The translations under genes and the position numbers were made by a program. 64,000 nucleotides of DNA from Odiellus spinosus (lineage: Eukaryota > Arthropoda > Arachnida > Opiliones > Phalangiidae), in the NCBI GenBank assembly GCA_963920705.1, contig OY987227.1:23399434-23463433 (forward strand). The letters are read 5' to 3'. Positions within the stretch are counted from its first letter, which is position 1, and every line of letters begins with the position of its first letter. Under the pieces are notes generated by a model. That model searched no databases. It was not told where the DNA came from and saw only the letters and a list, made by a program, of their open reading frames with translations. Below, one piece after another: positions 1,459-56,820 of the stretch.

Positions 1459-2130
1459 CAGGGTTGCCACAGTTTTTTCAGATTCAAATTAACTGACTTT
1501 TTCTAGGTTTGACCCTGACCTTTTCCAACGATTTTCCCTGCCCGTTTCAGCTAATACTACCCAATTTTTAACCTTTTATTTTTTATATAATCGCGTTCGA
1601 CAAACTTTTTGCACGCGTATCTTTGTTCTAATCTATACAACCAAGAATTCATTCGGGTTCCATAAGAATATGGGAGGGCCGCGATTCAATAACCATCCTC
1701 CCAAACTTTGTAGCAAAAGTTCGTCCGCTTCGAATCGATTTTTCAAGTAAATCGCTCCTGACATCTATTATTAACCCGCGCCACTAACGACCTTGACATA
1801 ATATTTTGAGTAATAAAAATGGAGCCGACAGAAAAAAGAAGCAGCGTACAAATTGCAGACGAACTTTTGTTGCAAAGTTTGGGAGGATGGTACCAGAGGC
1901 TAAAGCTATGCTCCCATATTCTTATGGAACCTGAATGGATTCTTGATACAATTAACTGACACGGTCAGCTTCTAATCTTTTCCGCAGATAATGATTGTAA
2001 TTTCCTGGCTTCTTGAAAGATCTTTAAATTCACTGACTTTTTAAAATATCTTAAAATTCTCGGAGTTTTCCCTGATTTTTTTGGTTCATTTTCAAATTCC
2101 CTGACTTTTCCCTGACCTGTAGCGACCCTG
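1459..2130. repeat. TTCCCTGAC-family element, first copy
   Basis: Starts CAGGGTTGCCAC and ends GTAGCGACCCTG (inverted), with CCCTGACTTTTCCCTGACC-type motifs next to both ends. Split by the nested element 1642-1945. The same motifs build 29216-30025 and 41257-41510. Confidence 0.6.
1642..1945. mobile_element. Inverted-repeat element with CA...TG ends and 7-bp flanking duplication
   Basis: Ends CAAGAATTCATTCGGGTTCC and the complement of CAAGAATCCATTCAGGTTCC; the inverted match continues through TAAGAATATGGGAG and a block AAACTTTG(T/C)A(G/A)CAAAAGTTCGTC. Flanks ATACAAC and ATACAAT agree in 6 of 7 bases. It sits inside another repeat (1459-2130). Confidence 0.8.
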
Positions 2131-2212
2131 ATTCAGATCTTTCTGAAAATTCTAGTCAAGTTTCGTAAGAAATCGTTAACATGGTTGCTTGAAATGAAAA
2201 TCAACTACTTGT

Positions 2213-2498
2213 ATAGTCCTGGTCGATTTGCCGGAAATGGACCCTTGTCTCATAGCCGCGCCGCCATCTTTTTGTAGTAACAGGTTGCCAGACTATTTAT
2301 AATTTTATTTTCCACAAACCAAATTCAAGTTGTTAGTCCAACGCTTCCTATATGATAAAGTATAGGAGGCGTTGGTTAGTCTGTAGCTATTTTCACACTA
2401 CAAAAAGATGGCGGACGATCACGTGACAAAAAGTTTTCCCCGCCAAAATTTTCGCGAAGTTCTCTAGACTTCCGGTTTTGGAAATCGACCAGGACTAT
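2213..2498. mobile_element. Fold-back element of about 286 bp
   Basis: Ends ATAGTCCTGGTCGATTT and its complement; inner pairs CCGCCATCTTTTTGTAGT with its complement and AACGCTTCCTATA with TATAGGAGGCGTT make most of it a hairpin. No target duplication recognised. Confidence 0.75.
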
Positions 2499-3118
2499 TC
2501 AGAAAAAATATATAGATACTAGGAATCCATCAAGAAAATATGATAATAATCATTTTTAGAATATTCTTATCGCTTACATCGTAAATGTTTCAAGTTATTT
2601 CTCAAAATCTTTCCTCAGACCCCAAATTTCAAGGACTTCTAAGTTATACAGGAAATATTAAGAAAAATTTAAACAGTTGGTATATCATTTCCAAGTAAAA
2701 CCACTATAATATTTGGGTTATTTTCAGTCTCAGTATTTCACACACACACGTACAGACTTGAAATATCTAAGTCAAGGTCTCTCGGGACGATCGATCTACT
2801 TAACATTCAATACATAGGAAGTAGATTGGAAATGGTAAAACGGCGTCTGTATTACCATTTTCGCAACCCCGCCGAAATTTCCGATCCGGTTAACCCAACA
2901 ACTCGATCGGGGTTCAAGACTTCAAGTCTAAATGGAAGAAGGGGGATACCAGGGGAAGGAATAAAAAGACCCAGGCATGCGGGTAAAAACCCTCTACCAT
3001 TTCCTCATGGTTTCCTTCTCTATAGATCGCTGCGTAAGATTGCGCAAAATGTTTAGACATAAAGACAGGTATCAAAGGGAGGATGAAAAACATTTTCTGC
3101 AACTTGGAAAATAGATTA

Positions 3119-3560
3119 ATTTTACGGCAAATAAATTATTTTGCTTTTACGGTAAATTATTCTGGTTTTTACGGCAAATTATTTCGATTTTTACGGCAAA
3201 TTATATCGGTTTTTACGATGTAAAGTAAATTAGGTTAGTTTTACGGTGGTGTAAAGTAAATTAGGTTAGTTTTACGGTGGTGTAAAGTAAATTAGGTTAG
3301 TTTTACGGTGGTGTAAAGTATATTAGGTTAGTTTTACGGTGGTGTAAAGTATATTAGGTTAGTTTTACGGTGGTGTAAAGTATATTAGGTTAGTTTTCCT
3401 GTGGTGTAAAGTAAATTAGGTTAGTTTTACGGTGGTGTAAAGTATATTAGTTTAGTTTTACGGTGGTGTAAAGTATATTAGTTTAGTTTTACGATGTTAA
3501 ATAAATTAGTTTAGTTTTACGATGTAAAGAAAATTATCTTTACGTTGTAAAGAAAATTAT
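3119..3560. repeat. 31-bp minisatellite
   Basis: First a shorter motif TTTTACGGCAAATTAT repeats about four times (3119-3212), then about nine units of 31 bp containing TTTTACGGTGGTGTAAAGTA and AATTAGGTTAG, decaying at the right end. Confidence 0.9.
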
Positions 3561-4836
3561 CTTGTGCATTATTTGTCTCAATCTAGTTATTTTTCTTTAA
3601 CCCTTGGCCACAACTAGCCGTTAAAATTTGAGATTACGGCTGATCTATAGAACTCGAGGAAGTAAAGAAGTTATTGATGACTGACGTCGATGACGTTTAA
3701 AATCTTTTGCAAGCCACTCCCACATTATTTCAAAGTTGAACGCGTCCAAATCGCGTTCTTTAAAAATTCACAGTGTATCTTCTATCCTTTCTCGATGTCA
3801 TTCAGATTGAATCTGATCATCATACGCCATCAATGTATTTAAAAACCAACAATTAAACGAATTAAAATATTCCTTTAACCAGCCCTTTAATTTAAATCCA
3901 ACTAAGAAAAATCTGAAAAATAATTTCTTTCTATAACTCCTAAAAAAAACTTCAAAAAGCTGGCATCACGCACGCTCACGAAACAAAATATATAGACAAC
4001 TCCCGGCAAGTTCAATACAAAACCATCAGAAAAAATAACTTTTGAGAGGGTTAATCGCGTTGTAATGGGCGAGCAACGAATTCCTCGTATCTTCGTCCTA
4101 CGACATGGCCAAAAAAAAAATGCCAACCGAAAATTTTGATCAATATTAGAGAAAGCCGGATCCTTCGTTCTTCGCGTAACTAAGAATTTCATTAATAGAA
4201 CTTTTTGGAAAACATTCTCGTAGCGTAGGCGCTCTCTCGCGTGGCACTCCCCCATTGCCAAAATGAAGGTTGCCTCCCTGATGGCCCGGGGAATGACCTT
4301 GTTGACCCAGTAGGGTCAACTACAACGACGCCCAAACGAAGCGTAGAGGTCGACTTTCACTAGCATTCTCTACCTCCCATTTTGGTATTAAACATTTTTT
4401 TCGATAGATTTAAAAAAATCAACCCCGTAATTACCATCTGACAGAATTTTTGAGATTTTTTTTCGTTAGTTGTCGAATTTGGTATTTTATGGGTGTCGTA
4501 CGTAAATGTAATAATTTATTCCTCGAGAGGAATATAGGAATTTAACCGAAGATAGAACCTGATGAGTATGTGACTCATATAATTTTAAAATTAAAACCTG
4601 TATTTCTTTCAAATTGATTTTAATAAAAACTCCGATCGTTGAATCTTAAATAAAATATGAAAAAAGGAACCGCATATTCCAAAAAAGAATTTTAACATAC
4701 TGGTATGTTTGGTATGTTAATTTTTTTTATCGAATATGAGACCTCGCGACACTTGCATTGCTTGGACACAAAGGATATAATTACAGAAGGTTGTAGAGGT
4801 TCGAAAATTGAAACCCACCCCTTTGGTAAGGCCTTG

Positions 4837-5001
4837 CCAAGGGGGCTGACACTCGCGAACTCTGGTGTACAAAATTTTTGAACACTTTGCACTATCAAAG
4901 CTGAACTCAAGAGGTAGAGTTCAAACTCAATGCACTGTCAAAGCTGAACTAAGTTATCTCAGGTGTACAGCGAATTCAAGAGTGCCGGACCTCTCGGGCC
5001 T
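4837..5001 (+). repeat. GTACACCTGA-family repeat, left member of an inverted pair
   Basis: Begins AAGGGGGCTGACACTCGCGA and contains GTGTACAAAATTTTTGAAC plus two copies of GCACT(A/G)TCAAAGCTGAACT. The segment 8248-8400 is the same sequence in reverse orientation. Confidence 0.75.
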
Positions 5002-5265
5002 TGCTACCATGGTCCATGGTATAAGGGCTCCTCGTGACCTTGACTCCTTGAGGCTATTACGGCGTTCGTCCTACAAGTGTATAACTAAACCTTTCAAACT
5101 ATAAAACCAAGTGACCTGGTCTGTGTGTCGACTCTATATGGTAAAATTGAACTAAACCTTTCAAATTATCTTTATGACCACAGATATGGTTTTTCGCTTT
5201 GACTCAAGTACCGTATGGTAAAATTGAATCTTTATAATTATAACAGCTTCTCATATAACTTGAAC

Positions 5266-6811: not shown

Positions 6812-7148
6812 CAGAAGCCGATGAAACCCTCCTTTGAAGTCTACTACTCCAATGTTCGATATAGCGCTCCTCTCTGTACGGGTAAAATTCCCAATTTTAC
6901 GAGTTAGAAGGGGTCCTACTTCATCCCCCCTGTCTACGGAAAATTGGAAATTCTCTCTCTCCACAAACGACGACGTTTTTTGGACGAACTCCAAGGCTGC
7001 TAGAGATATTAGCTCGACGAGCTCCCGCTCCGAAAACATCTACCGTTAGGAGGCGTACGAATCGCGCCTTTTGAGAATAACCCATACAGAGAGGGGTAGA
7101 CAAGACCCGGGAGTAATAGACTTCAAAGGAGGGTTTCATCGGCTTCTG
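6812..7148 (+). mobile_element. 337-bp non-autonomous DNA element, copy 1
   Basis: Ends CAGAAGCCGATGAAACCCTC and its complement form a terminal inverted repeat of about 38 bp; a second inverted motif CCTCTCTGTATGGGT lies inside each end. Target duplication ACTATAC at 6805-6811 and 7149-7155 is perfect. Small open frames on both strands are by-products of the element; no transposase is encoded. Confidence 0.95.
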
Positions 7149-10010: not shown

Positions 10011-10517
10011 TTAACGCGGATACACACAGACCTGTTTTTACGCGTTTCACGCTCGTGAACTCATAGAAGTACCATTAGCACGCGCGAGCGAGGTGCAAAC
10101 CACTCTAGAAAAATTTTGTACACCTGATTCCAGATTCATTTGATTGTCAGAATAAATTCGCGTGATTCCGAATTGATTCGTGATTCGCGTGATTCCGAAT
10201 CGATTCGCGTGATTCCGAATCGATTCGCGTGATTCCGTATCGATTCGCGTGATTCCGAATCGATTCGCGTGATTCCGAATCGATTCGCGTGATTCCGTAT
10301 CGATTCTCCTGATTCCGAATCGATTCGCGTGATTCCGAATCGATTCGCGTGATTCCGAATCGATTCGCGTGATTCCGTATCGATTCTCCTGATTCCGAAT
10401 CGATTCGCGTGATTCCATTTAGTTTGTACACCTGATTCCAAGAGTGGTTTGCCCATTGCCCCTCGCGCGTGACCGTGAAAAGCGTGAAAATAGGTCTGTG
10501 TGAATCCGGCTTTAGTC
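10011..10517. mobile_element. Fold-back element with a 20-bp minisatellite core
   Basis: Arms about 100 bp long pair across the core: GGATACACACAGACCTG with its counterpart CAGGTCTGTGTGAATCC style end, and GCAAACCACTCT with AGAGTGGTTTGC. Inside both arms stands TTGTACACCTGATTCC. The core (about 10155-10420) is about 13 units of GATTCGCGTGATTCCGAATC. The units are 20 bp, so all three minus frames stay open for over 90 codons; I do not regard these as genes. Confidence 0.75.
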
Positions 10518-19432: not shown

Positions 19433-19768
19433 CAGAAGCCGATGAAACCCTCCTTTGAAGTCTACTACTCCAATGTTCCATATAGCGCTCCTCTCTGTAT
19501 GGGTAAAATTCACAATTTTACGAGTTAGAAGGGGTCCGACTTCTTCCCCCTGTCTACGGAAAATTGGAAATTCTCTCTCTCCACAAACGACGACGTTTTT
19601 TGGACGAACTCCAAGGCTGCTAGAGATATTCGCTCGACGAGCTCCCGCTCCGAAATCATCTACCGTTAGGAGGCGTACGGATCGCGCCTTTTGAGAATAA
19701 CCCATACAGAGAGGGGTAGACAAGACCCGGGAGTAATAGACTTCAAAGGAGGGTTTCATCGGCTTCTG
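19433..19768 (+). mobile_element. 337-bp element, copy 2
   Basis: Same ends and body as copy 1. Perfect 7-bp target duplication CTATAAC at 19426-19432 and 19769-19775. Confidence 0.95.
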
Positions 19769-20143: not shown

Positions 20144-21646
20144 GTTCCCTTTAATTAGAATTTTTTTTAGGCGAATCGAGTTTTTGGCTTCAAAACAAAC
20201 GTGAAGTCCAAATCAAGCTTTAAGCTTAACCAAAGTTAAACGGGCTTTAATAGAGAAGTAGATTATTATCAAAATTAATTTATTTTCTTGATAACACGAA
20301 AGCAAAAGCTTTAAAACGTCGATTGAAACCGAAACCCGTGGTTACAAGAAAATTAGTTAATTGTAACGAGAGAAAGAAAGGTCATTTATAAATTTGATAA
20401 ATTAGCAATGGCTTAGTCACGACAAAGAGGTATTACGCGTTGTACAATTATTTTCATGTAATATTGGTCTTAATAATAGACCAAGCTATTTCGGTTATTT
20501 CACCTTCAATGAGTAGCGAGTAACAAAGCTATATACCCTTATAATTTGTTTATTTGGAGATATAGAGAGGCTATAAATTTTTTTTATCCGCGCTACTAAC
20601 ACAAGATGGAATGACTTGAAACGCGTGTCTTTTATAGCTTGGGGCTGCTACGCTACCAATACGAGATTTCCCACAAAATTAAAAAAAGATTAAAAAAATC
20701 GTGATCAAAAAAGCCCCATAAAAAGAGAAATTTCCGAAAATTAGGAAAGTAAGCCAGTAATTTAAAAATGTCTTTATTACCGGCCGGTGTCGCTGATTCG
20801 TTTCGGAGACAATAATATATTTTTCTCGTATTATATGCCAATAGTTATTACTGTTAAATTGGCAACTCATAACCATTAGAGAAATGCTATAATCCAACGT
20901 TTTACTAATTATTATATCATAAAAGCAAGGATAAAAGGCATATAAAAGATAATTGTTTTGTACAAAAGGTGCGGTATTTGTCATAAAATGTTGGTGGTCT
21001 TGCAATAAAGAACAACAGCAACTCCCCATAAGAGTCTGGGTCCACGTAATGTTAAAAATTTTCGTCTCTTTTATGATAAATTCGTATTATATTATTAAAA
21101 TAGGGTAGTTGGGGGATAATTTAAAGCTAAAATTCGAGCTCACAACTGTAAATTTTGGGAATTACAACGAATGGAAGGTTTCTTCCATAATGTAAAGAAT
21201 AGGAAGAATCTATGACTTCCGTGCCGGATATGAAAGCCTTCCCCCACACGAAAATCTTGAACGGTTATTATTTTAGATTCATAATTATGTTAGGAAAATA
21301 TTAGGAAAGAATTATTTTGTAACTGCCACGGGTATAGTGCTGGCCGAAAAATGAAATTCGTATATTTTTGGTCTACTATGCCTCGAAATCCTCGAAAACG
21401 CCTGTAGAAGTGTTCCACTTGTCAAGCATTCATGCAGTAGGCTTTTGCTAGCTTTACAGGGGCCGTGCAAAGACTATATAGCTTACTTGAATAGTCTTTG
21501 GTGTATAAGAAACTCGAAAAATAAATAGAGAAATCATACCAATTAGAAGATACTGGAGTAGTATCTTTAATTTTTATTTCATATTAAACAAAACACACTT
21601 GTATAAAACGGACAAATTATTCATTTAACGCTAAGGTTTTCTACGT

Positions 21647-23050
21647 TTAACGTATGTCTGGTAGTTCAAGCTCAGTGGCATCTTCACACACTACACGCAA
21701 TTTTGACTGGTACCAACTGCCTCGATCTTCATGGCGACGATAACCAAGATACCAGATTACGCTGCTAACGTGAACACAAGTACCTATCGTCAAACTACCA
21801 CCTTTGCAATTGCAATACCAGCCTTTAATGGCATTTGCACCTGTCCCGTTCGGTACATAACGAATTAGAGCTTGGTGAACAGCTGAGGTGGAAAATTGAC
21901 CAGGCACGCGTATACGAATTAAGTCATGTTCAACTTTGGACACTTCGACGCTGAAAGAGCCGGATTTCTCTATAGTCAACGCCACATAAGATTCAGCGCG
22001 TTTCGTTTTAAAGTCGCTCATTACCACCTCACGTACATCACTTTCACGAAGTACAGGGAAGTCTTGAAATTCACTATTCTCAATTCGTTGCCATTGAGGA
22101 TTTTCTTTCGTAGAGACTGCCAGCATTTTTTCGACGGAGTCTTCCCAGGAACCTTTAAGATGTAACTCCGGGTGGTAGGCGTTCAACAGCGCAGCAGCAA
22201 TTTGAAGAAGTTCTGGAACTAATGGTAACATATGCACAGGTATACGGTTTTGAAAAAAACGATACACCGTCTGCAAATGCCCATTCCTAACTTCAACCGG
22301 CCACCTGAAGTACGTTACTTGTCGGGAACGATTAACTTCTTGCGTGTTTACTTGCTTCTCGCCTTTAGACAAGAACGAAGGCATTTGTAAATCCACACCC
22401 AGTTCAGTCAGTACGCTGTTGGAGTCTCGAAAACCGCGGTCTGCCAGTACAACGTCACCAACTTGAAAGAAAGACTGGAGTTCTTCTCTCTTTTTGATAG
22501 AATGGTTTAAAATGCGCGCGTCGTTATTGCGGCCATTAGCAAAGTAGGGTCCGATTATATCTATTATGTAACCCGTAGTTGTTACCATTAACATTGGCTT
22601 GAGGATATGCTGGCCTTTGTGCACACAGAAGGATTTGTGAAGAACGGTATAGTCCTTGGATCTTCCAACCTTGATATAGGTGCCATCTACAATGGTAATA
22701 AGACTATTAGGCTTGTTGTTAGCAAAGAGTTTTACTGCTGCTCCAGATTGATGGTTTGTTATCAGATTGTCACGTGATAAGTGTTGCAGGCCAAAATGAT
22801 GTGGCACGAAATGCTCCGATAAAGCCATAATAACCGCTTTTACCGTGTTTGATACCGATCTTTCAGTTAAATGAAATAAAGTTGATAAAGACGTCTTTAA
22901 TATTTTTTGCCAGCCAGGTTGGCGAAAAATATTAAAGACGTCTTTAATATTTTTTGCCAGCCAGGTTGGCGAAAAATAATTAAACCTGTTTTTATAAACA
23001 TTAAAAAAATTGTAATATCTGGTTTGAACCATGATCTTAAGAAGATCCAA
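21647..23050 (-). CDS. DDE transposase with SWIM zinc finger, left-arm copy, probably truncated at the N terminus
   Basis: A 467-codon open frame (first codon TTG; first ATG is codon 7). Motifs: DGTYIKV with D122, ADRGF with D204, and the WPVEVRNGH block with E253, forming the DDE triad of the DDE_Tnp_4 type (PIF/Harbinger, closest in feel to the ISL2EU branch). A helix-turn-helix-like stretch LSTLFHLTERSVSNTV precedes the catalytic part. The C-terminal part has WYCNCKGGSLTIGTCVH, a CxC...CxH SWIM zinc finger (C413, C415, C425, H427), for nucleic-acid or protein binding. It would cut and move its parent element in the nucleus. The first 50 or so residues come from the repeated spacer and do not look like the family, and the other arm begins right there, so the true 5' end is probably lost. 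Compared with the right arm it lacks 15 codons near residue 318, in frame. Confidence 0.8.
   Translation of the reverse strand: MDLLKIMVQTRYYNFFNVYKNRFNYFSPTWLAKNIKDVFNIFRQPGWQKILKTSLSTLFHLTERSVSNTVKAVIMALSEHFVPHHFGLQHLSRDNLITNHQSGAAVKLFANNKPNSLITIVDGTYIKVGRSKDYTVLHKSFCVHKGQHILKPMLMVTTTGYIIDIIGPYFANGRNNDARILNHSIKKREELQSFFQVGDVVLADRGFRDSNSVLTELGVDLQMPSFLSKGEKQVNTQEVNRSRQVTYFRWPVEVRNGHLQTVYRFFQNRIPVHMLPLVPELLQIAAALLNAYHPELHLKGSWEDSVEKMLAVSTKENPQWQRIENSEFQDFPVLRESDVREVVMSDFKTKRAESYVALTIEKSGSFSVEVSKVEHDLIRIRVPGQFSTSAVHQALIRYVPNGTGANAIKGWYCNCKGGSLTIGTCVHVSSVIWYLGYRRHEDRGSWYQSKLRVVCEDATELELPDIR
22890..22978. repeat. Two 47-bp tandem units made of nested palindromes
   Basis: Period 47 bp (22890-22936 and 22937-22978). 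Each unit contains the perfect palindrome ATTAAAGACGTCTTTAAT around its junction and a near-palindrome with arms TTTTTTGCC and GGCGAAAAA. It sits at the centre of the transposon inverted duplication and is read as part of the left transposase frame. Confidence 0.8.
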
Positions 23051-34240: not shown

Positions 34241-34578
34241 CAGAAGCCGATGAAACCCTCCTTTGAAGTCTACTACTCTAATGTTCCATATAGCGCTCCT
34301 CTCTGTATGGGTAAAATTCACAATTTTACGAGATCGGAGGGGTCCTACTTCATACCCCCCTGTCTACGGAAAATTGGAAATTCTCTCTCTCCACAAACTA
34401 CGACGTTTTTTTGACGAACTCCAAGGCGGCTGGAGATATTCGCTCGACGAACTCCCGCTCCGACAATATCTACCGTTAGGAGGCGTACGAATCGCGCTTT
34501 TTGAAACTAACCCATACAGAGAGGGGTAAACAAGACCAGGGAGTAATAGACTTCAAAGGAGGGTTTCATCGGCTTCTG
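34241..34578 (+). mobile_element. 337-bp element, copy 4
   Basis: Both ends intact, but the flanks do not match (GTATAAT on the left, ATAGAAG on the right), so it is the only copy without a target duplication. Belongs to the subfamily with GATCGGAGGGG in the body. Confidence 0.9.
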
Positions 34579-35524: not shown

Positions 35525-35816
35525 CAAGAAGGATCAGATAAGGAGAGGAAAAGTGGGAACGGCGCGGCTCCTACTGCGTCGGCCTAAACTCCCACTCTGG
35601 GAGAACGGGGGACAGACGGGGGTAGAGATGCTTCGTGGTAAATTGTTGTCACGTGGGTAAAACGAATCCTTTATGAGACGCGCTAGCTAGCGACCACGTG
35701 ACAACAGTTTACATCGAGAATTTCCTATCCCCCCTTTCCACCCGAGTGGGAGGTTGGCTCTTCTCTCTCTAACTCAACGCAGCCCCACTTTTCCTCTCCT
35801 TATCTGATCCTTCTTG
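35525..35816. mobile_element. Inverted-repeat element, 292 bp, 7-bp target duplication
   Basis: Ends CAAGAAGGATCAGATAAGGA and its complement, inverted match about 33 bp to GAGGAAAAGTGGG. Flanks CCTCTAC at 35518-35524 and 35817-35823 are identical. Inner parts also pair (TTGTCACGTG with CACGTGACAA). No coding content. Confidence 0.9.
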
Positions 35817-35823
35817 CCTCTAC

Positions 35824-38800
35824 GAACCCCTTCGAAGACCGCTGTCTCCCTCAAGGATTAGTTTCGACTAAAATTCATCCTCTGATGGCTGCGTCCCTGT
35901 AAAAGGTTCTTCGCCTATCTCAATAAAAGAGTCCGTCTACAAAATCATTCTCCAATGACGGGATATTTGCGAATCTTAGCGTGAGATGAAGCACGACTGT
36001 CACGTCGAATTGTCAGAGTCAGACACTAACATATCAGCTAGATACGTTCACAATTGACACTTTGAAGGTGTTAATCTCAAACCTTTTCGAATGTTCAAAT
36101 AGAATTTTCGAGCTATTAATTCTGTACGGCGGACTATAAAATTTTATAATTTGACCTTTCCAAAACGGTTCAAAGTCTTTAGTGTGAACGCATCTATCAG
36201 CCCACAGTCGACAGTAGAATTCATTGAGAGTAAATCTTCGACCAATGGTTGTAGGCATCTCGTATACAAAAGGGTTAGATAATTTGATTTTTTCCCTTAA
36301 TATTGGGGTTTGAATTAAAGAAGCGTGAAAATTATCCCACGAGGTACACAAAATGGGACATACAATATTAAACTTCAAATAACCTTGCATTAACTTCTGA
36401 TATTCGGTAGGAGGCATCTTCTCCTCCTACCTCTATCACTCTCTCTCTCTCGCTGATGGAGGAGCAGGTGCTCGGTGGTATTGTAACCGCAAAAATATCC
36501 TTAAATATATGGTGTAGTGAATCAAGAGACTTATATAAATATATCTTACTACCCTATACTCTCACCGCGTTTATTAAGAAATTTGGTGTAATTTGGCTAT
36601 AAGGACCCACAGCGACGCTTTCAAACTATAAATAACGTCTCGCGTGTAATTACGTACATTTACAATTCATCTAAAATGATTTTTTTTTTTTTTCAGAAAG
36701 ATACGTCAATGGTAACAACGTATCGAGGCGTCTGATATTAAATTTTATAGCCAGGTTTTACTTCGAAACGTTGTCACCTTGATCTGAAATTTAGGCGAAG
36801 CAAAGTCCATTGAATGTCTAGGTCCTGGGGAAAAAAAAACTGCTATACAGGAGTCGATGACAAGCTCGATTCAATGTGTAGAAGGGTAATTACCGTGATT
36901 TTTGAGCAAAATAATAAGCGGCTGTTGAAAGCTATGACTTCTCGTGAATTCATTTTTTACATATATTAAGTATCATTTTTGGGAACGCATTTACTATAGA
37001 GACGATTGGTTGGTGGTCATTTATAATCAAAAGCAGAAGCCGATGAAACCCTCCTTTGAAGTCTACTACTCCAATGTTCCAAATAGCGCTCCTCTCTGTA
37101 TGGGTAAAATTCACAATTTTACGAGTTAGAAGGGGTCCTACTTCATCCCCCCTGTCTACGGAAAATTGGAAATTCTCTCTCTCCACAAACGACGACGTTT
37201 TTTGGACGAACTCCAAGGCTGCTAGAGATATTCGCTCGACGAGCTCCCGCTCCGAAAACATCTACCGTTAGGAGGCGTACGGATCGCGCCTTTTGAGAAT
37301 AACCCATACAGAGAGGGGTAGACAAGACCCGGGAGTAATAGACTTCAAAGGAGGGTTTCATCGGCTTCTGTCAAAAGGTAGAAGATAGATCGAGAGAGAT
37401 TTAGAAAAAGAGAACTTGAGAAGCGTATACGATTACGTCAAGTTGCTTGCTTCCTCAGCTTATAAATTGTAAAAATAAATGAACAGATATTTAAATGAAC
37501 AGATATTTAAAACAATAATTTCCCGAATTCTATAGGTAATCAGTATCACTATAGTGTTACGAGGCTATTATAAGACCTATATCTGATTCTCGCGCGTTCT
37601 GGCACGTGATAAAGCGGCTTTCACGCGGTCTTTTTCGCGAAAGTACTTGATCCAGAAAGTCTCACTTTTCATTCGAAAATTATCGTTAGTCAAGTTCCAG
37701 AAACAAAACTACGTGAAAAAAAAAAATTATAAAAAATGAAAAATAATATCCCTAGATGTTCGGAAAACACTTTCATTGTGGAACTGGGGACACTTTATAG
37801 ATAAAATAAGAAGATAATAATTGGTTGACCCTAGATATTCGATAACTTTTCCTACAAAACAACTGCAAAATATTGAGAAATTTACGATATAACGTCAAGA
37901 GCTTATCAAAAAATACTAAAACTTAGCACGTTTTTTTATGAATACTTTCTCACAGTATAATGTCTAAAAGAACACCTATTTTTGGAGAGAGGTGATTCAC
38001 ACAAGGAAGAGCTCCCACGCCAATCTCTAGCATCCTTGGAGTACTACTAATTTAAACCTTTAAATTGGTCAGGGAAAACATGGAAAAGTCTGGGAATTTT
38101 GTTATGAAAAATCTGTGGCAAACCCTGCAGCGTGTCTCTTTGATTACCAGCATATTCCTGGCATATACTAACTACAGCAATTGCTGTTACTTTTACAGCA
38201 GCTGTTTGTTTCTGGTGTGTATGACGTCTCGCTATAATCGTCTAACTTAATTACTTCGAGATATCACGGAGAAGAGCGTCTGATTAAAAATTACATGTCG
38301 TTTTAGTGTAAAATACCAGAGTGAAAAATGGGTGGGGTTGTCATCGTCCAGACAGGGCGCAACGCGAACATTTTATCTATCGTATTTATAGAGAACCTCG
38401 ATCTCACTAGTGATCAATCGAATAGCGCAAACACGGCGGATTGATAAGGAAAATATTAATTGTGGGGTTAAGAATTGGGCGCTCAACCGAAACGAAAAAA
38501 CGCCGCCTAATTTTAATTAAACTATGTTTTAAGTATAAGCAGAAACACATTGTAAGCAAGAAATCAGACAGCTGAGCCGCCCCTACCGAACCGATCTGAT
38601 AGGGATAAAAGCGTCTAAAATGGGAACTAATACAGGTTTGAGACTTTTTTCCGTGGTATAGAATGGAGGACGCCATTTACAGAAGGGTAATCAGCCAAAG
38701 ACACCACCTACGAAATTGGAACTTTCCTATCGATATAGTCTGTTTCACTTTATTGTATTGAGAAAGATAATGGTAATTTTTGGTAGCGGGCGAATGAAAA

Positions 38801-40408
38801 TAAAATAACCTTTTTGAATGAAAGATCCTAAATCACCTCCCAGTCATAATAGGACGCGAGTCTAAATGGAGGGCAATGTCGTCCTAGTACATTTTAGTCT
38901 TCGGAGCTAAAGCTATAGGTCCACTGCTATGGAACAAACCGATAGCGTCTCTCTTACGTCTATGAGTCCCTACAAGAACCTACTAATGGAACCCGAGAAC
39001 TTCAGTGCAGAGATGTCCGGTTTTTCCCTTATTGCTCTCTTATCTCCTCACTAGATAAAAAGTATTTAACCCGTTCTTGGCTATATTTAACTAGCAAAAC
39101 GCTTAAATGGGGTGGAATGACGTCAGACAGCCACTCTCTACTCACCCTGCCTCGGGTACGCATTCCGCCTACAATAGTGGTGTTTACAACACGTGACTAG
39201 CCGTCCCAAGTCCCTTCCCCCATTAACTCTTGTTAAAAACGCTTCCAGACAGAGGACAAAACAGGGTAAAGCAGGTGCTTAACAAAACCCCACACATGCC
39301 CATTCTAAACGCCATTACTCTGGGTTAATTCAAAAGCGCGCAGAGGGTGGGTTTTGGTACTCAAATAACCATAACGTATCCGTTGTGTAAGACAACTTTC
39401 CTTCTGAACTGATTTTTAGTTCACTGTTACTTTCTGGTACAGTTATTTGAATTCCCGAAACATTCCTTGATAATTAAACCTCTCTAAATGGTCATGCGCC
39501 GTAGAGGTATAAATGTTTAAGATTCGTGGGAGCAATCACGTGCTGAGTGTCAATTTTAGTCACGTTAGAAGACAGTATATACCGTTTTGATGTCGGAGCT
39601 CGCCCATGACGATCAGGGGAAATCAAGACGAGGTGGAGGGGGAACCCGCGCGGCTGATCTCTCAGAGTTTGGGTTAGTATTAAGAAGGGCGCGTTGCCTC
39701 GCGGCAGGTGCGAGCGCCATTTTCTTATAAAATTGACAGCTGGCACTTGGCTGGGAACGCCAAGGAATTAAAAAATCCGCCCATCCGCGAATGAAAAAGC
39801 TCAAGATTATCGGTCGGTTTTTGGGCGAATACCGCGATGAGCGATACGACTTGGGAGTCCGCGAATCGAACCTCGAACATACATAGGCGTCCACCGCCGC
39901 CCTCCCCCTAAAATCATTATTATACTTAGGGAGACGAGTGATGAAATATTCTAACCATGACCCAGCCGCCAAGGAGAGGGGACAAACCATTCCCGGACAA
40001 CTAAATTCCAAAAAGATAAACCTTTTTCATTTTCTTTTGACGAAACAATTTGAAATGAGTGGGAGGAAAAAGTAATCCTAAGAAATTGCCAGAAACCACC
40101 TACATTTTTCAAGGTGTTTTTGCGGCGCTGGCTGTACCGAATTTAAGAGTATTAGAAGGTATTACAGCGAATAATATGGTTCACACGACCACATTTTTCA
40201 GTGAAACTGAAGGAAAAGTCTCACGAAATATCCGAGATATCTAAATGTGAGAAATACCGAAATTTATAAACCTCTTTCTACAGAAATTAATAATATTTTA
40301 ACTCGTCACTAAAGTAGATACTGACGATTCAAAATCAGACCTATTGCAACCAAACAAGACATAACGCCTAACAAAAACATGGACATAAGTTTTAAAAAAT
40401 TTCAGAAA
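35824..40408. other. Gene-free stretch apart from one 337-bp element
   Basis: A 127-codon minus-strand frame (36034-36417) has no recognisable domain. The motif TTTGACCTTTCCAAAACGG followed by AGTGTGAACGCA near 36150-36190 recurs diverged at 28520-28575, so it overlaps a dispersed repeat. Nothing else has clear ends. Confidence 0.5.
37034..37370 (+). mobile_element. 337-bp element, copy 5
   Basis: Perfect target duplication TCAAAAG at 37027-37033 and 37371-37377. Subfamily with GTTAGAAGGGG. Confidence 0.95.
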
Positions 40409-41240
40409 TAAATTTTAATTTCTAATAAATTTTGTGATTTTAATTTTAATTTCTAATAAATTTTGTGATTTTAATTTTAATTCCTAATAAATTTTGTGAT
40501 TTTAATTTTAATTCCTAATAAATTTTGTGATTTTAATTTTAATTCCTAATAAATTTTGTGATTTTAATTTTAATTTCTAATAAATTTTGTGATTTTAATT
40601 TTAATTTCTAATAAATTTTGTGATTTTAATTTTAATTTCTAATAAATTTTGTGATTTTAATTTTAATTTCTAATAAATTTTGTGATTTTAATTTTAATTC
40701 CTAATAAATTTTGTGATTTTAATTTTAATTTCTAATAAATTTTGTGATTTTAATTTTAATTTCTAATAAATTTTGTGATTTTAATTTTAATTTCTAATAA
40801 ATTTTGTGATTTTAATTTTAATTTCTAATAAATTTTGTGATTTTAATTTTAATTTTTAATAAATTTTGTGATTTTAATTTTAATTTCTAATAAATTTTGT
40901 GATTTTAATTTTGATTTCTAATAAATTTTGTGATTTTAATTTTGATTTCTAATAAATTTTGTGATTTTAATTTTGATTTCTAATAAATTTTGTGATTTTA
41001 ATTTTAATTTCTAATAAATTTTGCAAATTTAATGTTTATTTCTAATAAATTTTGCAAATTTAATGTTTATTTCTAATAGATTTTGCAAATTTGATGTTTA
41101 TTTCTAATAGATTTTGCAAATTTGATGTTTATTTCTAATAGATTTTGCAAATTTAATGTTAATTTCTAAACAATTTGTGAATCTAAAGTTTCATTCTAAT
41201 AAATTGTGATTATAACGATTATTTCTAATAGATGTTGTGA
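40409..41240. repeat. 31-bp minisatellite, about 26 units
   Basis: Unit built from AATTTTAATTTCTAATAAAT and TTTGTGATTTT; the last units change to TTTTGCAAATTTAATGTTTA. Very regular in the centre, decaying to the right. Confidence 0.93.
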
Positions 41241-41256
41241 TTTTAATGAGCTAGTT

Positions 41257-41510
41257 CAGGGTTTCGGTTTTTTCAAATTCAAATTCCTTGATTTTTCCAG
41301 GTTTTTCCCTAACCTTTTCCAACGATTTTCCCTGACCGTTTCCGCCAAAACTATACATTTTCAAATATTTATGTAGATAAGGATTGCAATTTCCTGGCTT
41401 CTCGAAATTCCCTGACTTTTTAAAATATCTTAAAATGCCCCGAGTTTTTGGCTCATTATCAAATTCCCTGACTTTTCCCTTTCCTTTGGGTTTGCCAATC
41501 TTGTTTTCCT
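41257..41510. repeat. TTCCCTGAC-family fragment
   Basis: Begins CAGGGTTTCGG and contains TTTTCCAGGTTTTTCCCTAA, CCAACGATTTTCCCTGACCG and AAATTCCCTGACTTTTCCC, closely matching 1500-1560 and 2030-2115. It abuts the 31-bp minisatellite on its left. Confidence 0.6.
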
Positions 41511-42035
41511 TAAAATTCACTCGAAACACTGTCTCACCTCCAAAAATTTAATTTATGGAAAAACATTTTGGGGAAATGTTTCAACCGTAAAAATAACTTT
41601 TCAAATAAAGAAAATTCCCGGGACGCGAATAACTATTACGAAATATTCGTATAAAAGCCCGCGTCAATAAATTCCCGGGCACGTAACTCGTTTTTCGTTG
41701 AACGTTTACTTCACCACTAAAACTAGTATTAATAATCTACGAAGAAATAAAAACACAAGTTTTCCCACCAACAAAAAAAAAAAAAAAAAAAAAAGCGGAT
41801 AGCATTGGTTGTTCATTCGTTGAATGAATAAAATTGAATATAACAACTTTAGCGTGTATGCAAAATTAAATATTAAAATAACTATAGTAAAAACAAACTG
41901 CATGGCACGCGTTTTTGAAATATTAGTAAAGGAAAACAAGTAGTTAAAAGGAAACTTGGAGATAAAAATGGAAAAGCTTTTTTTGGGTTCAATATTATAG
42001 GACAACGGTACTTTTAACCAAATTTACTAGAAATA

Positions 42036-42775
42036 TGGTGATTTAGGGACCAAAATCACAATTTTATGGTGATTTAGGGACCAAATTATGATTTTATGGT
42101 GATTTAGGGACCAAATTATGATTTTATGGTGATTTAGGGACCAAATTATGATTTTATGGTGATTTAGGGACCAAAATCACAATTTTATTGTGATTTAGGG
42201 ACCAATTTATGATTTTATGGTGATTTAGGGACCAAATTATGATTTTATGGTGATTTAGGGACCAAATTATGATTTTATGGTGATTTAGGGACCAAATTAT
42301 GATTTTATGGTGATTTAGGGACCAAATTATGATTTTATGGTGATTTAGGGACCAAAATCACAATTTTATGGTGATTTAGGGACCAAAATCACAATTTTAT
42401 GGTGATTTAGGGACCAAATTATGATTTTATGGTGATTTAAGGACCAAATTATGATTTTATGGTGATTTAGGGACCAAATTATGATTTTATGGTGATTTAG
42501 GGACCAAATTATGATTTTATGGTGATTTAGGGACCAAATTATGATTTTATGGTGATTTAGGGACCAAATTATGATTTTATGGTGATTTAGGGACCAAATT
42601 ATGATTTTATGGTGATTTAGGGACCAAATTATGATTTTATGGTGATTTAGGGACCAAATTATGATTTTATGGTGATTTAGGGACCAAATTATGATTTTAT
42701 GGTGATTTAGGGACCAAATTATGATTTTATGGGAGGTTTAGGGACCAAATTATGATTTTATGGAAGGTTTAGGTA
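42036..42775. repeat. 30-bp minisatellite, about 24 units
   Basis: Unit ATGGTGATTTAGGGACCAAA plus TTATGATTTT, with a 31-bp variant ACCAAAATCACAATTTT at positions about 42047, 42171, 42351 and 42382. The right flank reads GGTTGGAGCCCTG. Confidence 0.93.
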
Positions 42776-44305
42776 TTTTAGGGACCTGGTTGGAGCCCTG
42801 CTGTTTAATTATTGGATAATATTCATCCGTTGTGCGCGAACTAAATCTAAATTATGGCGGGGCGTCATGTCACCGTGACATAAAACAGCAAAATATTGGA
42901 GAAACTGAATTAAATCGTTGTATTTGAACTATCTATTGAAATGTGACCTGTTATAAGTTCAAATTAAATTTATCATTAATGCATTCTTATCTTAAAAAAA
43001 TTAAAATAAAAAGATGTAGTGTGGTTGGGCGGCGTTTCCCTTTTCAACTCTTATATCAAAGAAAATAGTATTAGTGGCATGCACGGCGTGATAAGATATG
43101 CTTGGCATTAACATGAACGCCAAGACGGGTTTTTCCTGTATATATTAAGGTTTTCTTATTTACGTGATAATTTTAAAGTTAGTTTTTATCCAGCTATACT
43201 CGAGGAACGAGCATTGTTTGAGTACAATGAAACGAGGACAAAAAACGCCATAAAACTTCGTTTTTAATCTCGTGCGGGGGTGTCTAATGTCAAATAAGAT
43301 TTAAAACTCCAGTAAGCCAGGACTAAGATACCTCAACAGCCTTGGGTTTTTTGTTCTCTTACATCGTTAGAAAATTATGATATTCCAACTAAAGAACGTA
43401 TATAATCTTAATACTGAGACGAACTGAAAGTTAGAACATTATTTTTCGGATATGGTTACCGCCTAAGTTTTTTTTTTGAAAGAATAAAGGCATAAAAAAC
43501 TCTTTCTTTACAAAATCCTGGTTGGGGACAAGACGTTATTACCGAGATAAAAACGCACGACTTAGTTGAAACAAGCCGTCTCGTTTGGATTTAAAATGAG
43601 TACATATCATTATTGATGAGCGCTTCTACCGAGTGACATTATCAATACGACAGGGATTACACAAGGGGATAAAACCCACATTGAGGGATTAAGGGATTAC
43701 GCGAATAAGTGATAGTACTATTTATTTCACGTATATTAAGTTATTTAGATTATTTTATATTGAAAGATATACAAGGCCGTAACCACCTGGTTATGATGAG
43801 TAGTAAGAAACTATTACTATATGGGCAAACTTTTGAATTTTTTCGTATCTGTGGCTAGAAATTAAAATTGGCCGAAATTCTATACTCTACCCCAAAAGAT
43901 AATGATTATGATTTCTTAGTTAAGTTTAGGTTTGGTTAGATTTGCTTATTTATATTTGTTTTCGGTTGTAAAACTAAAAAATATAATTTTTCTATTTTAT
44001 AATTTTGGGTTTATTTTTTTATACATTATAGCTGATTTCCCCACGCTCGAATCGAGTGTTTTTTAGTTTCCCGAAACTAGAGACAAGGGTTAAAAATTAA
44101 CTGCAAATAATTGGTTCAAATGATCAACAATTAAGGGGTCCATTTGATCGTGTATTTATACTTTAAAATTGCCCTGGTTATTTACCGTAATGGGCTAGGA
44201 CTCATCCTGGCTAGGGTAAATATTTCACTATCTTAAAATTAAAGAGGAAAGTCTGGGATACAAAATAAAATTGGCCTAATTACTAGCCTTTTCCAAAGAA
44301 ACCGG

Positions 44306-45997: not shown

Positions 45998-46334
45998 CAG
46001 AAGCCGATGAAACCCTCCTTTGAAGTCTATTACTCCCGGGTCTTGTCTACCCCTCTCTGTATGGGTTAGTTTCAAAAAGCGCGATTCGTACGCCTCCTAA
46101 CGGTAGATATTTTCGGAGCGGGAGTTCGTCGAGCGAATATCTCTAGCAGCCTTGGAGTTCGTCAAAAAAACGTCGTCGTTTGTGGAGAGAGAGAATTTCC
46201 AATTTTCCGTAGACAGGGGATATGAAGTAGGACCCCTCCGATCTCGTAAAATTGGGAATTTTACCCATACAGAGAGGAGCGCTATATGGAACATTAGAGT
46301 AGTAGACTTCAAAGGAGGGTTTCATCGGCTTCTG
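45998..46334 (-). mobile_element. 337-bp element, copy 6 (reverse orientation)
   Basis: Perfect target duplication ATAGAAT at 45991-45997 and 46335-46341. Subfamily with GATCGGAGGGG when read on the element's forward strand. Confidence 0.95.
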
Positions 46335-49040: not shown

Positions 49041-52000
49041 TGAACCTAAGCCGCACAGTTAATCAGTTAAATAAACTGATTAAACCTCGGTTAATTACAT
49101 GCCTCGTCTGACGAGAGTATAACTCATTTTGATTTATAGAACACGTCCCTAAATTTATGCCAGCAGACTTATCAAAAACACCCTGTATGTAGAATTTCAA
49201 ATATTTTGGCCAGACATCTTTCAAAGACTGTCCCGCCACATTCAATTCCCCCTTAGGATTTAGATTCTGTACGTGTCATTTCGCTCAACAATTGGGTAAC
49301 CAAAGACGCTAAGCCGCAAATAATAAAAAAAAAAAAAAAATCCAAAGCGTACGGTGTATATCAATCCATAATCAAAGCTATACTATCTTTTACACCGGCT
49401 TAGAAGAGACTAAAATATTATAGTACAAACGCGTTAAAATATCCTTCTCTAGCGTGTCCCATCCAAGAGTGTAATAAGAAAATAATATGAAAGATTTCAT
49501 AAAAAATTGTTAGCTCGGCTTATCTGGATTCCGCGGGATAATACGGAAGAAAAAAAACCTTATCGAAGGTAACCTCCAGATGGCAATAGCGCGGCCAATC
49601 AACAACGCCAGCACTAACTTAATAATAATAATGATAATAAAGGGGGGTCGTGGTCGGGGATGATAAGAAAAAGGTGGCCATACATAGGAGGAAAGGAGCT
49701 TTGAGGAGGTGGACCCCAAATGCCATTCTACAGGAAAATATATAGTGTGTGTGTATTTATACTCTATAGTGTTGCGGCCACGCAATAGTTGACGCGGCGC
49801 TATCATTCCACACCCGCATTATGAACCGGACCCCCATGATTAAAGGAATACTACAACTAAATAAGAGTTTTTTGAATAAAGTAAATCAGAAACCCAAATT
49901 GTCATCAAGAACCTATGGAGAGGGTCCGTGACCCGTACTTAACTTTCCTGTAATATTAACCCCTTTCTTGGGTCGTCATCTTGTGGTGGTGAGGTCCTAG
50001 AGGGGCTCTTCTGATCCCTCATGGAACCCAAACTAACCACGACCTATACCCTGTTTCCGCGGTCACCATGTCTAGAGGTCGGGGTTTGAACAAGATTATC
50101 CATAAATAATTGGTTAATCAGTTAATCATAAAAATAATCGGTTAATTATTCGCGATTACATTGCATTTATCATAGACTTCCCGTGGATAATTTCAAAATA
50201 TGAATAAAGATAAAACAAACAGAAATTATCTTATCCAAACCCTGACCTCTAACCATGTCCTTATGGACCTCCGTCTTCGGTGTTGCCTGTAATGAAGTTC
50301 TGAACATCTCATAGAGTTGGGAAAGACTAATGGCGGCTTGCTTTTAGCACAAGGAAAGGCGCGTTATACTCTCTTCAGACGAGACGTTATTGGTCGGTTT
50401 AATCAGTTTTAACATTGGTTTATTTAACCGAAAAGGCTATGTAAACATTGGTTAAATCTAATTAAACCGGCTAATTACGCCAAGCGAATTAAACCAATCA
50501 GAGCGTTGAAAAAAATCGTGATAGAATGCCGACAGACAGACAAACCATCCTCAACCTTAATTAGGAACGTACACGCAGTTCGTCAACAATCGAGACATAT
50601 CCTAGCTCCTCTAAAATAATTCGAACCAGGGCAGCGAGCTTTGTAAGTGGTGTTTGCGTTTAGAATTAGATATCACTGACACATTTCTAGCCATCGAGGT
50701 CTAAAAATAATTTCGAGGTTGTAGTTTTCCTTTGATCTTCTAGCTAAGATGTATGGGAGAACGCCTTGGGGTCATTTTTGTGGCGCTTATAAGCTCGCTA
50801 TCGGGAAGACTTTGTTGAAGATTATTTTATTATTGCTATGGATAAATGATCAAGGCGAGTCCCCCATCAGCCAACTTCCCCCGAGATATTTTTCAGGTGT
50901 TGCGATCATTCAACATAGTCATATATTTATTCGCGAGTTATTCGAGACAACGCTTACGAAGGTGAACTGCCTGGTATTTAACTCCCATTTTATAGCATCT
51001 CTTCCGCATTTACGCTTCATTGACTGAAACAACTCGAACAGTACATTTTCACCCTGAGATTTTCGTATAGGATGCTTGGTTGGCTGGCCCGGGGTGGCTT
51101 CGTTCAATGGTATTCATTCTTTGTCGACCCTTAGATTTTTTAAATCATACATATACTATTTGTTGCGTGTAGCCGCTTCAACAAGTACCCTTAGGCGACG
51201 TTTCCCCCGAAATATGTTTACTAAATACCGTCAGTAACACGCGGAAGAAATTATCCAATATAATGATTATCCACTAATACAATTTTAAGTCCCTAGTAAG
51301 CTGTAAATTACTACGCGGAGTAACACGAGGGTGCGGGAAGAATTATTGCAGTATATACATCCTGGTTTACGATAAAATTACTAATTACATCACAGGGTAT
51401 ATTATTAAACGTCAATGGCTGATTGTAAAATAGCTATGGCTCAAGAAAAGTTTCAAAATATTAGAAAAAAAAAATATATTGTACGACGAAGCCTATTACA
51501 AAATTTTATAGGGATAATGAACACGAGTACCGTAACCCGTTATTTTTAAATCATTATAGAAGCGTTAAAATATGCACAAAAAGATTATTAAAACGTATCA
51601 AACTTTTCACTTGCAGTTAATTAACAAACGTTGCTACTTGAAGCAGCTAAGCCTATCCTAATTTACAAAATTTAAGAGCCCCCAAAACACGCGCTTTTAT
51701 TACCGTGTAATCGCTGTACACTCTGGTTGAAATGATTACGTAATAACTCTAATTATTTATACGAAGCGTAGTCAGGCGTAATCATCGAGGTCATTTTGTA
51801 ATCACTGTAAACGCGTAATAATTCCATAATCACACCGTAATCGCTACCAAATCTCATAGTAATTGCGTAGTCGCTCCGTAATCGATGGTTAATCAGAGTA
51901 CTCAATTACGTACCGTAATCACTCGCGTAATCAGCGTAATCACAGTAATCGGTGTACAGAAAATGTTAAGTGATCAATCCGCGATAGAGTTAAGCACGCT

Positions 52001-53277: not shown

Positions 53278-53613
53278 CAGAAGCCGATGAAACCCTCCTT
53301 TGAAGTCTACTACTCCAATGTTCCATATAGCGCTCCTCTCTGTATGGGTAAAATTCCCAATTTTACGAGATCGGAGGGGTCCTACTTCATACCCCCTGTC
53401 TACGGAAAATTGGAAATTCTCTCTCTCCACAAACGACGACGTTTTTGGACGAACTCCAAGGCTGCTAGAGATAATAGCTCGACAAACTTCCGCTTCGAAA
53501 ACATCTACCGTTAGGAGGCGTACGAATCGCGGTTTTTGAAACTAACCCATACAGAGAGGGGTAGACAAGACCAGGGAGTAATAGACTTCAAAGGAGGGTT
53601 TCATCGGCTTCTG
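53278..53613 (+). mobile_element. 337-bp element, copy 7
   Basis: Perfect target duplication ATCAGAG at 53271-53277 and 53614-53620. Subfamily with GATCGGAGGGG. Confidence 0.95.
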
Positions 53614-54215
53614 ATCAGAGCTATAGAGCGGGAAAAGTGGCTTTTTTCCTATGGGAAATTAACGAGTCACTGACCAATAATCATGTTGGAAACTAATCGG
53701 GATAGAATGACGACGCGTTCAAGTACCATTTCTTAATATATATTTTAATCGCGGCCAGATGTTAAGTAACATCGTCTGTACGTATAGCTAACACAGCCAA
53801 AAATAATTTCTTATTCGTCTTCGAGGGAATTTTTATTCAATCGAACAGCACCTGCGCTCAAATTTGAAACAAAACGTCATCTAAGCTTACAGATTGGAAA
53901 CATTTTAAAAATTCAGGCTATATCATTAATATAAATTGATTGACAGTAGCCCACCTTGCGTAGTCGGGACCCCGCCCCTCGATTTAATTTAAGTTTAAAT
54001 GAATATGAGAAGTACGTGAAAAAATGCTCATCAACGAGGTATACGTGAGCAACTTCAATCTACTCAATCTCAAATTGCTTATCTTGCTCTTTTCAAAAAA
54101 TATGTCATTAATAATTACACGTTATCGACCTGCATCGGCTAAACTAAAATTACTTTAGTATATATATAATAAATTCTCTATGAATAATTTTATAAATTTT
54201 GATTTCTCGTTAAAA

Positions 54216-54706
54216 CAGGGTGACCACTGAAAATTTAAAAATCCCATATAGGAAATATAGGAAATTTCTTTGCGAAATATAGGAAAATATAGGAAGAATT
54301 TTATGTAAAATATTGGATAAAATAGGAAGAAATAAGTGTAAAATATATGATAAAATAGGAAAATAATTAATTAAAAGTAGGAACCATTAATTAATTAAAA
54401 GTAGGAACCATGTTTATTATTGCGTCACAACTCTCGCCACCGGTTTAAATATGGATATTAATATGATCCAATTGCTTAAATAATATGGAATTTTACAGAC
54501 TATTTTAACTGGAAAATGTACAGTTAAGCTAAAATAATCTTATACAGCCACAGCTGACAGTATGATTTGTAACTTTATACCCTTAACTAGAGATTTTGAG
54601 TAGAAATATAGGAGATTATAGAAATTGCCATTAAATTATAGGAGAAAATAGGAAGGAGGTGAAAATATAGGATAAAATAGGAAATATAGGAAAAGTGGTC
54701 ACTCTG
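54216..54706. mobile_element. hAT-like non-autonomous element, 491 bp
   Basis: Ends CAGGGTGACCACT and AGTGGTCACTCTG are inverted. Flanks CGTTAAAA and CGTTAATA agree in 7 of 8 bases, and an 8-bp duplication with CAGGG-type ends is the hAT pattern. Clusters of ATATAGGAAA motifs lie just inside both ends, which are typical sites for subterminal transposase binding (inference). Confidence 0.75.
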
Positions 54707-55330
54707 CGTTAATAACACCCTTCAGTCAACCTTTTAAAATTATTTTAAACACCAAAAACGTATTAAATAATTGTCAATAAATTCTGAGACTAAAGGTTTT
54801 CAAGAAAGCTAAACCTCCCCTTTTACAGGGGGTGGTTATGAACGCGAGTTTCGGTTGCATAACCGCTATTTAAAATTATCAATTCATGCAGATGCCTCTG
54901 CTATTCCCGACCCCTTGACGCCTAAAATTCGATCTTAGTATTCGATTTGGCGAGGCGTCGAGAAATTTCGTATAAGCAATGAAATTGACATTCAAACATT
55001 TTCGAGTAAACTTAATTATTCATTGGGCCTTGGCGGCAAAATGTGTACGAATAACTAATATTTCACGCCAATTCGCTAATATATTCTAAGTTGTCTAAAA
55101 TACATCGTTTTACTCTAAGAAATTCAGTAACACCCTCCTAGCCAAAGTTGAAAGTAAGGCGAACCAGACGCCGCCGCGTGAAAGCACGCGATATTTTGGC
55201 GGCAACGACAAACGAAAGTCAATATGCAAATGAGATGCCTTTCCGAGGCGCGAAAAAAAAAAGACGGAAAGGAAAAATACCCGGATAAAGTTTTCTTATT
55301 TACCAAAATGCCATTTGATTATAATATTAG

Positions 55331-55756
55331 CAGAGGTATATAATAGCCCCCTTCGGGGGGAAGTATGAAAGCCCCTATACTACCAATGCTAAAAATCGCG
55401 AACAACAAGAGCCCGATGCTGACTATCTAGGCCACTGGCTCGCGCTGGACTTCTCAATGTCGCTACTCTAGTAAATGGTCTTTGTATAAACAAGACGGCT
55501 CGATTTGTGTTTAGAACTTCCTGTCTCAGGAGCCAGGCTGTCTGTTAAATTGGAGTCGAAGCCTCGAAGGTTGACTTCAGCTCGCAAGTTCCGGAAGTGT
55601 GCGTAGGGAAAATGTAGTGAGGTTCAAAATGGTGTAACTATTTTTTGGGAGTAAAGCGGTGTGTCGACCCGCCGCGATTTACGCCGGGCACTAGTTGTTC
55701 GTCGATTTTGCCTACCTTTCATACTTCCCCCCGAAGGGGGTTATTATATACCTCTG
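55331..55756. mobile_element. Inverted-repeat element, 426 bp, 7-bp target duplication
   Basis: Ends CAGAGGTATATAATAGCCCC and its near-perfect complement, followed by an inner CCCCTTCGGGGGG hairpin and AAGTATGAAAG on both sides. Flanks ATATTAG at 55324-55330 and 55757-55763 are identical. Confidence 0.9.
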
Positions 55757-56820
55757 ATATTAGTTATAATCTTGAAAGGAATCTAAATTTGCATAATTCC
55801 TATTGTAATACCGATTTTTGTAATGGGAAAAGTTTCTTTTAACGTGTCGGGTTTTTCCAAGCGCCCCCGACAAAAACATGGTGAAAAAAAAGGTTCTACT
55901 TGAGAATCAAAATGAAATAACTCACCAATTAACGGCATCATCCATAACCTTGGAACCAGCATTTATCTTTTAGTAAAAGCCGCCTTGCACAGAGAGTTTA
56001 TCAAATAAGTTCATCAAGCATCGAGTCCTGTACTTATGTATATGATAATGAACGGAATTTGACCTTTGACCAGATGACAGAATATGCAGGTCCTGTTAAA
56101 AGAATCAATGTATAACAACTTAATTCACTTTATAAAAATAACAAAATAACTTAAAAATTCTTATTACAATTTATTAATATTGTAATTTTTGTAAAAATTA
56201 GTTCAATATTAAATGAGTAATTCGGAAAAGATGGGATTATTTGATATTTTGTTTGCAAATTGTCAACTTTCGAGATATTATATTTTTGCGTTACTCGGTA
56301 AACTTCAACTTCGCCCTCTTTCTTTTGAGTTTTTCTTGGAAAGTAAAAAAAAAAAAGGGCGATTAGTTTATTACTTTCGAGAAGTAAAATAAGGTATATA
56401 ATTATTTTCTTTTTATTCGTGTCAGAAATATCTAACGAGAAAGGGGTACAGGAGGGCAGGGATGACGTAACCGCCCTTTACCTAGATCACCATCTATCCC
56501 TTTCGCTCGTTACGCTATCACCTCTATTTTGGTAAAAGTTACTCTCGCGTCATTCATTCCGGCACGCGGCTATATATAAAGATTTTTCAAATATTGGACG
56601 AAGAAAAATTGAGCGCCCGAAAACTCATTAATCATGGTGAGAAGTCTAGCACCCGAATTTTTTTCTGACTATTGGGCGATAGTTTTTCGTCATCAATATA
56701 TAGGGAATAAGATGGTTACACTCGTATCATAGCCACACTTCTTATTGAAGATGGTAGCGCAAGCAAGTATATCATACCTCAAGTTTACAACAAACCATAT
56801 TATGATTGATACGTCGTTCA

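Follow-up and report, generated by a model that had tools for sequence, protein, structure and literature searches.

Four miniature element families of the Odiellus spinosus genome, with CA...TG ends and 7-bp duplications, are probably transposons of the P superfamily

A stretch of 64,000 nucleotides from Odiellus spinosus (contig OY987227.1, positions 23,399,434 to 23,463,433; hereafter, the window) carries four families of short elements, E1, E2, E3 and the 337-bp family E337, which are probably miniature non-autonomous transposons (miniature inverted-repeat transposable elements, MITEs) of the P superfamily, moved by P-type transposases made elsewhere in the genome. E1 (1642-1945, 304 bp) has CAAGAA...TTCTTG ends, a 35-bp terminal inverted repeat (TIR) with 2 mismatches and a subterminal inverted repeat, and is flanked by ATACAAC and ATACAAT, which agree at 6 of 7 bases. 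E2 (35525-35816, 292 bp) has the ends CAAGAAGG...CCTTCTTG, a perfect TIR of 33 bp and the duplication CCTCTAC, and E3 (55331-55756, 426 bp) has CAGAGG...CCTCTG ends, a 41-bp TIR with 1 mismatch and the duplication ATATTAG. E337 is present in eight copies, six of which are flanked by exact 7-bp duplications: 6812-7148 (plus strand, ACTATAC), 19433-19768 (plus, CTATAAC), 28069-28406 (minus, GTGTCAA), 37034-37370 (plus, TCAAAAG), 45998-46334 (minus, ATAGAAT) and 53278-53613 (plus, ATCAGAG). The copy at 34241-34578 (plus) has no matching duplication, and that at 58673-59004 (minus) appears truncated by about 5 bases at one terminus; on that reading, ATAAAAA flanks it on both sides. The claim of an earlier sequence-only reading, that four elements of unrelated body share CA...TG ends and 7-bp duplications, was confirmed: E2, E3 and E337 have CA...TG inverted repeats with exact duplications in the window, and the bodies of the four are mutually unrelated, as are their ends beyond CA(A/G)(A/G). 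In addition, a common build was recognised by eye, consisting of a TIR of 32-41 bp with 0-2 mismatches, a spacer and a subterminal inverted repeat lying at most about 130 bp from the element end. In 20 order-1 shuffles of the window, none of 139 inverted-repeat pairs, counted over all registers, was flanked by a 7-bp duplication, and a chance 7-bp match is expected in about 1e-4 of pairs at the window composition.

Copies elsewhere were examined in the genome that contains the window (443 Mb, 286 contigs). A first look gave 1771 candidates for E337 and 893 for E3, and 40 of each were scored; the copy number of these P-type MITEs may accordingly be high. Among the E337 end pairs in 30 fetched loci, one of which is the window's own copy, 27 of 33 had an exact 7-bp duplication, and one of the other six was a cross-pairing between neighbouring copies; three loci (L007, L008 and L023) gave no pair of perfect ends. 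All 12 E3 end pairs from 12 loci, again including the window's own copy, had exact 7-bp duplications, with one locus (L090) yielding no pair and another (L091) yielding two. A further E3 copy was found in L013, and E2-like tips were met by chance in L014, L017 and L023, all with 7-bp duplications (ATCAGAG, CTAGCAG and ATTTTAC, respectively). The insertion sites examined are AT-rich, and the duplications of E337 and E3 are alike in look. The symmetrised target motif of E337, derived from 30 sites, is TNN[RTWWWAY]NNA; its complementarity across the centre amounted to 3.93 of 10 pairs, whereas 1000 random draws of window positions, made without matching for local A+T, averaged 2.65 and did not exceed 3.53.

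The same genome contains P-type transposases. At least 150 matches to the P-type RNase H domain PF21787 were obtained, all above the cut-off, in the scored part of 386 candidates; these matches are not equivalent to genes, as some are adjacent pieces. No match was found in any of 14 control genomes. Open frames among the matches reach 929 aa, THAP, RNase H and GTP-binding domains were found among seven representative proteins scanned, and the protein of one locus (L041) matched the P element transposase structure 6p5a in the PDB with an E value of 5e-19. Element ends were sought in 11 P families, distinct at 60% identity, and six gave clear ends with exact duplications. Two of these, L054 (4140 bp, ends CACTACC, duplication ATCCGAC) and L050 (4609 bp, ends CATCGAC, duplication GTTAAAC), have CA...TG ends and 7-bp duplications. 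Another two, L059 (3777 bp, ends CGGTGCC) and L046 (4581 bp, ends CGTTGCC), have CG...CG ends and 7-bp duplications, and the remaining two, L037 (5207 bp) and L032/L033, have CA...TG ends beginning with CATAGA and 8-bp duplications (GTTATAAC and AATGGAAC in L032/L033). P elements of Odiellus spinosus thus make 7-bp duplications with CA...TG ends, besides 8-bp ones. The terminal sequences differ among the six families, except that the two CATAGA families are alike at the tip. Their perfect inverted repeats of about 22-35 bp, that of L032 containing mismatches, are comparable in length to those of the four MITE families. When copies within P families were compared, clear ends were recognisable in L032/L033 and L059/L060, whereas L047/L051, L040/L044 and L035/L036 gave none. 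L059 and L060 are identical over 3300 bp to the element end and have open 801-aa frames, and this CG...CG family is probably moving recently. In a search for known inverted repeats inside 3.4-kb P loci, CATAGGTATAAAATAAC in L032/L033 was found to resemble E3; it was rejected as a chance match, as it lies internally beside THAP-like coding sequence and not at an element end.

The cleavage site of Drosophila P transposase lies 17 nt within the inverted repeat (PMC7776569), and when the ends are joined the overhang is left as sequence flanked by the two duplications (PMC3878927), as far as the available parts of these sources describe it. Two 14-nt E337 ends placed head to head, with 0-20 bases between them, were found at 13 places genome-wide, and the reversed pattern, used as a control, was found at none. 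Eight of the 13 scar-like palindromes are flanked by exact 7-bp duplications. The palindromes are 31, 33, 37, 38, 40 or 41 bp long and retain 14-24 nt of each inverted repeat. Palindromes were also present in the P loci, namely one of 37 bp, flanked on either side by TTCCGAC, in L040/L044 and two of 31 bp in the L041 family. A general scan of 353,071 bases with tandem arrays filtered out gave four hits, and three shuffles gave none. These hits correspond to two distinct CA...TG palindromes with 7-bp duplications, one shifted register (a 38-bp/5-bp hit at the same place as a 36-bp/7-bp hit) and one CG hit with an 8-bp duplication inside a tandem array (window position 10169). The tandem filter had removed both 31-bp palindromes of the L041 family, and a looser scan of the window gave many further hits, most of them within tandem arrays or E337 copies. 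A 36-bp CA...TG near-palindrome at 2339-2374 of the window is flanked by exact 7-bp duplications GTTAGTC (2332-2338 and 2375-2381); judging from its sequence, it is perhaps an excision scar of another P-type family, one of which the window shows no other trace.

The L041 locus (C2:30620728) has its two 31-bp CATAGACTAAG palindromes in tandem at joined positions 4805-4874, with 7-bp duplications; they also occur in the near-identical loci L042, L043 and L045, and the 5' side of L041 carries the same sequence. Three E337 palindromes without a duplication (L097, L098 and L099) are identical and have the same right flank; they are probably duplicates of a single palindrome. Two of them lie 7.4 kb apart on C1 and the third on C2, as would be seen with a duplicated scar or a piece of a larger repeat.

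These observations point to P-type transposition of the four families, although with different force for each. A P-type transposase very probably mobilises E337 and probably E3 and E2; E1 is assigned to the same type by likeness of build. According to the proposed mechanism, a P-type transposase, with a THAP domain and an RNase H domain containing a GTP-binding insertion, would bind the terminal and subterminal inverted repeats of the MITE and cleave the two strands at different positions, one at the tip of the element and one deep within the inverted repeat. Insertion would follow at palindromic, AT-rich targets through cuts staggered by 7 bp, and rejoining of the empty donor site would leave both duplications, separated by 14-24 nt from each of the inverted repeats. 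The sequence-only reading had named P-like and Dada elements as the nearest in duplication length. The P-like part of this proposal is supported by the P transposases with CA...TG ends and 7-bp duplications and by the scar-like palindromes of E337.

Several results weigh against this assignment. The case for E1 is built on one copy, whose duplication agrees at 6 of 7 bases. Five of the 11 P families (L041, L047, L035, L040 and L053) yielded no clear ends. The search for ends in the 11 P families turned up no autonomous element that terminates like E1, E2, E3 or E337, none of the six P families with clear ends shares their inverted repeat, and a tblastn search with 30 P frames detected no P-like sequence within the window. 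In the palindromes, an exact duplication is lacking at 5 of the 13 places (L097-L099; L101, whose flanks agree at 5 of 7 bases; and L109, which has no duplication), and 24 nt are kept on one side in 5 of the 13, compared with 17 nt for Drosophila P. Furthermore, junctions recur at different sites: L100 and L101 are the reverse complements of L102 and L107, respectively, and L105 is identical to L108, so that with L097-L099 counted as one sequence there are only 8 distinct junctions in 13 places. The longer sides could result from a deeper cut or from repair synthesis, and a junction could also recur if ends are joined preferentially at short runs that they share. In the literature searched, as far as its text was available, a full sequence description of P excision scars was not found, and the expectation for scars rests in part on the two sources cited above.

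Because junctions recur, it is conceivable that the palindromes of 31-41 bp arose by transposition of minimal elements and not by excision, which would touch the scar evidence and not necessarily the superfamily. The identical junctions of L100/L102 and L105/L108, which lie at different sites with different 7-bp duplications, favor this explanation. On the other hand, the variety of junctions, some with filler or near 17+17 nt (16+17 in L106; 17+14 in L101/L107), is what end joining would give, and joining preferentially at short shared T runs may account for the repeated ones. Minimal elements are considered rather unlikely, and the palindromes are taken as putative scars.

The sequence-only reading had also proposed that one transposase family drives all four. 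The data favour a single superfamily comprising several families over one family. The shared CA(A/G)(A/G) tips, the equal duplication length and the similar-looking duplications of E337 and E3 would fit a single P family acting through common ends; however, the inverted repeats of the four diverge after the first bases, and the P families with clear ends differ from one another. A single P family is thus improbable. Every P family found here ends in a sequence of its own, and the four MITE families are therefore probably served by several of them. P transposases with CA...TG ends exist in the genome, none of those with clear ends sharing the ends of the four families. Partners from different superfamilies, which would have spoken against a common origin, were not encountered, no partner having been found at all.

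A hAT lineage making 7-bp rather than 8-bp duplications is still less probable. hAT ends often begin with CA, so that the terminal dinucleotides are similar, and the target is likewise AT-rich. However, the duplications are exact over 7 bp, not 8, in 27 of 33 E337 pairs and 12 of 12 E3 pairs, and CA...TG ends with 7 bp are present in P elements of the same genome. The palindromes, which keep 14-24 nt of each inverted repeat, also differ from hAT excision, which, in the available text of a review, proceeds through hairpins on the flanking DNA and leaves a random footprint. The argument against hAT is drawn from the duplication length and the palindromes; no search for hAT transposases was made. 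The DDE_Tnp_4 transposase encoded in the window (21647-23053) is a very unlikely driver: it was the sole transposase among seven window frames scanned, but the 3.7-kb palindrome that hosts it ends in AAAGAACAAC, is flanked, as judged by eye, by no more than a shared 4-bp CAAT and shows no ends in common with the four families, and the element was set aside; its PDB matches were weak (best E value, 0.46). Dada elements, the other candidate of the sequence-only reading, fit with their 6-7 bp duplications and are the least probable of all, because the published Dada-U6 and Dada-U1, in the available descriptions, lack TIRs and target RNA genes, in contrast to the long inverted repeats and AT-rich sites seen here, with no Rfam match in the window and no tRNA gene in 35 loci (tRNA scan with bacterial settings).

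The palindrome around the DDE_Tnp_4 frame (21007-24749) is near-perfect, with arms 99% identical. It contains the frame on the minus strand and a broken second copy head to head, possibly with CAAT flanks, and the Cys/His-rich tail of the frame, which has no Pfam match, looks SWIM-like. In an inverted-repeat survey covering 301,980 bases, most apparent 5- or 9-bp duplications came from the same elements read in a shifted register and were given no separate count; the other matches were JL035/L036 (AAATCAAAATAGG) and window positions 8784, 42053 and 50073. The last is a 179-bp inverted-repeat element (50073-50251) with the ends TAGAGGTC and the exact 8-bp duplication ACCATGTC, a MITE of another kind, perhaps hAT-like. 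The window also contains numerous tandem arrays, their repeat units being about 20-40 bp long (3157-3559, 10122-10481, 29524-30049, 31327-31768, 40272-41284, 41932-42806 and 57018-57365).

The assignment of the four families to the P superfamily illustrates that short elements of unrelated body can be placed in a superfamily from their ends, the length of their duplications and palindromes that look like scars. Should such palindromes of a high-copy MITE prove to be scars, the P-type cut position could be read from sequence; for Drosophila P, it is known by biochemistry, according to the available part of the literature. MITE assignment by P-type genomic scars was not found in the limited literature searched, in which no search was aimed at exactly that. 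More tentatively, and less probably than not, the data may reflect a radiation of P-superfamily lineages with a 7-bp stagger, cuts deeper than that of Drosophila P (each side keeping up to about 24 nt) and, in some cases, CG...CG ends. Such lineages would have given rise to MITE families with many hundreds of young copies, the cut position being recorded in the scars of these copies.

Among known systems, 1360/Hoppel belongs to the P superfamily and has a 7-bp duplication. The Drosophila P element and zebrafish Pdre2/THAP9, as described in the accessible portions of the literature, resemble the four families in having inverted repeats (31 and 13 bp, respectively) together with subterminal ones, the ends of Pdre2 being CATACCTGTCAAC; they differ in their 8-bp duplications, a length matched in Odiellus spinosus by L037 and L032/L033. 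Elements of the P superfamily that make 7-bp duplications (Galileo) have already been published, as have zebrafish P-like copies with internal deletions, and the present finding is clear yet fairly ordinary. Galileo of Drosophila, in the part of its description available, is alike in having 7-bp duplications with a palindromic consensus, a P-superfamily transposase and many non-autonomous copies. Its inverted repeats are long and internally repetitive, in contrast to the 32-41 bp of the four families. The palindromic target motif of E337 resembles the Galileo consensus GTANTAC (PMC4168063), from which it differs in being RTWWWAY with an outer T/A pair.

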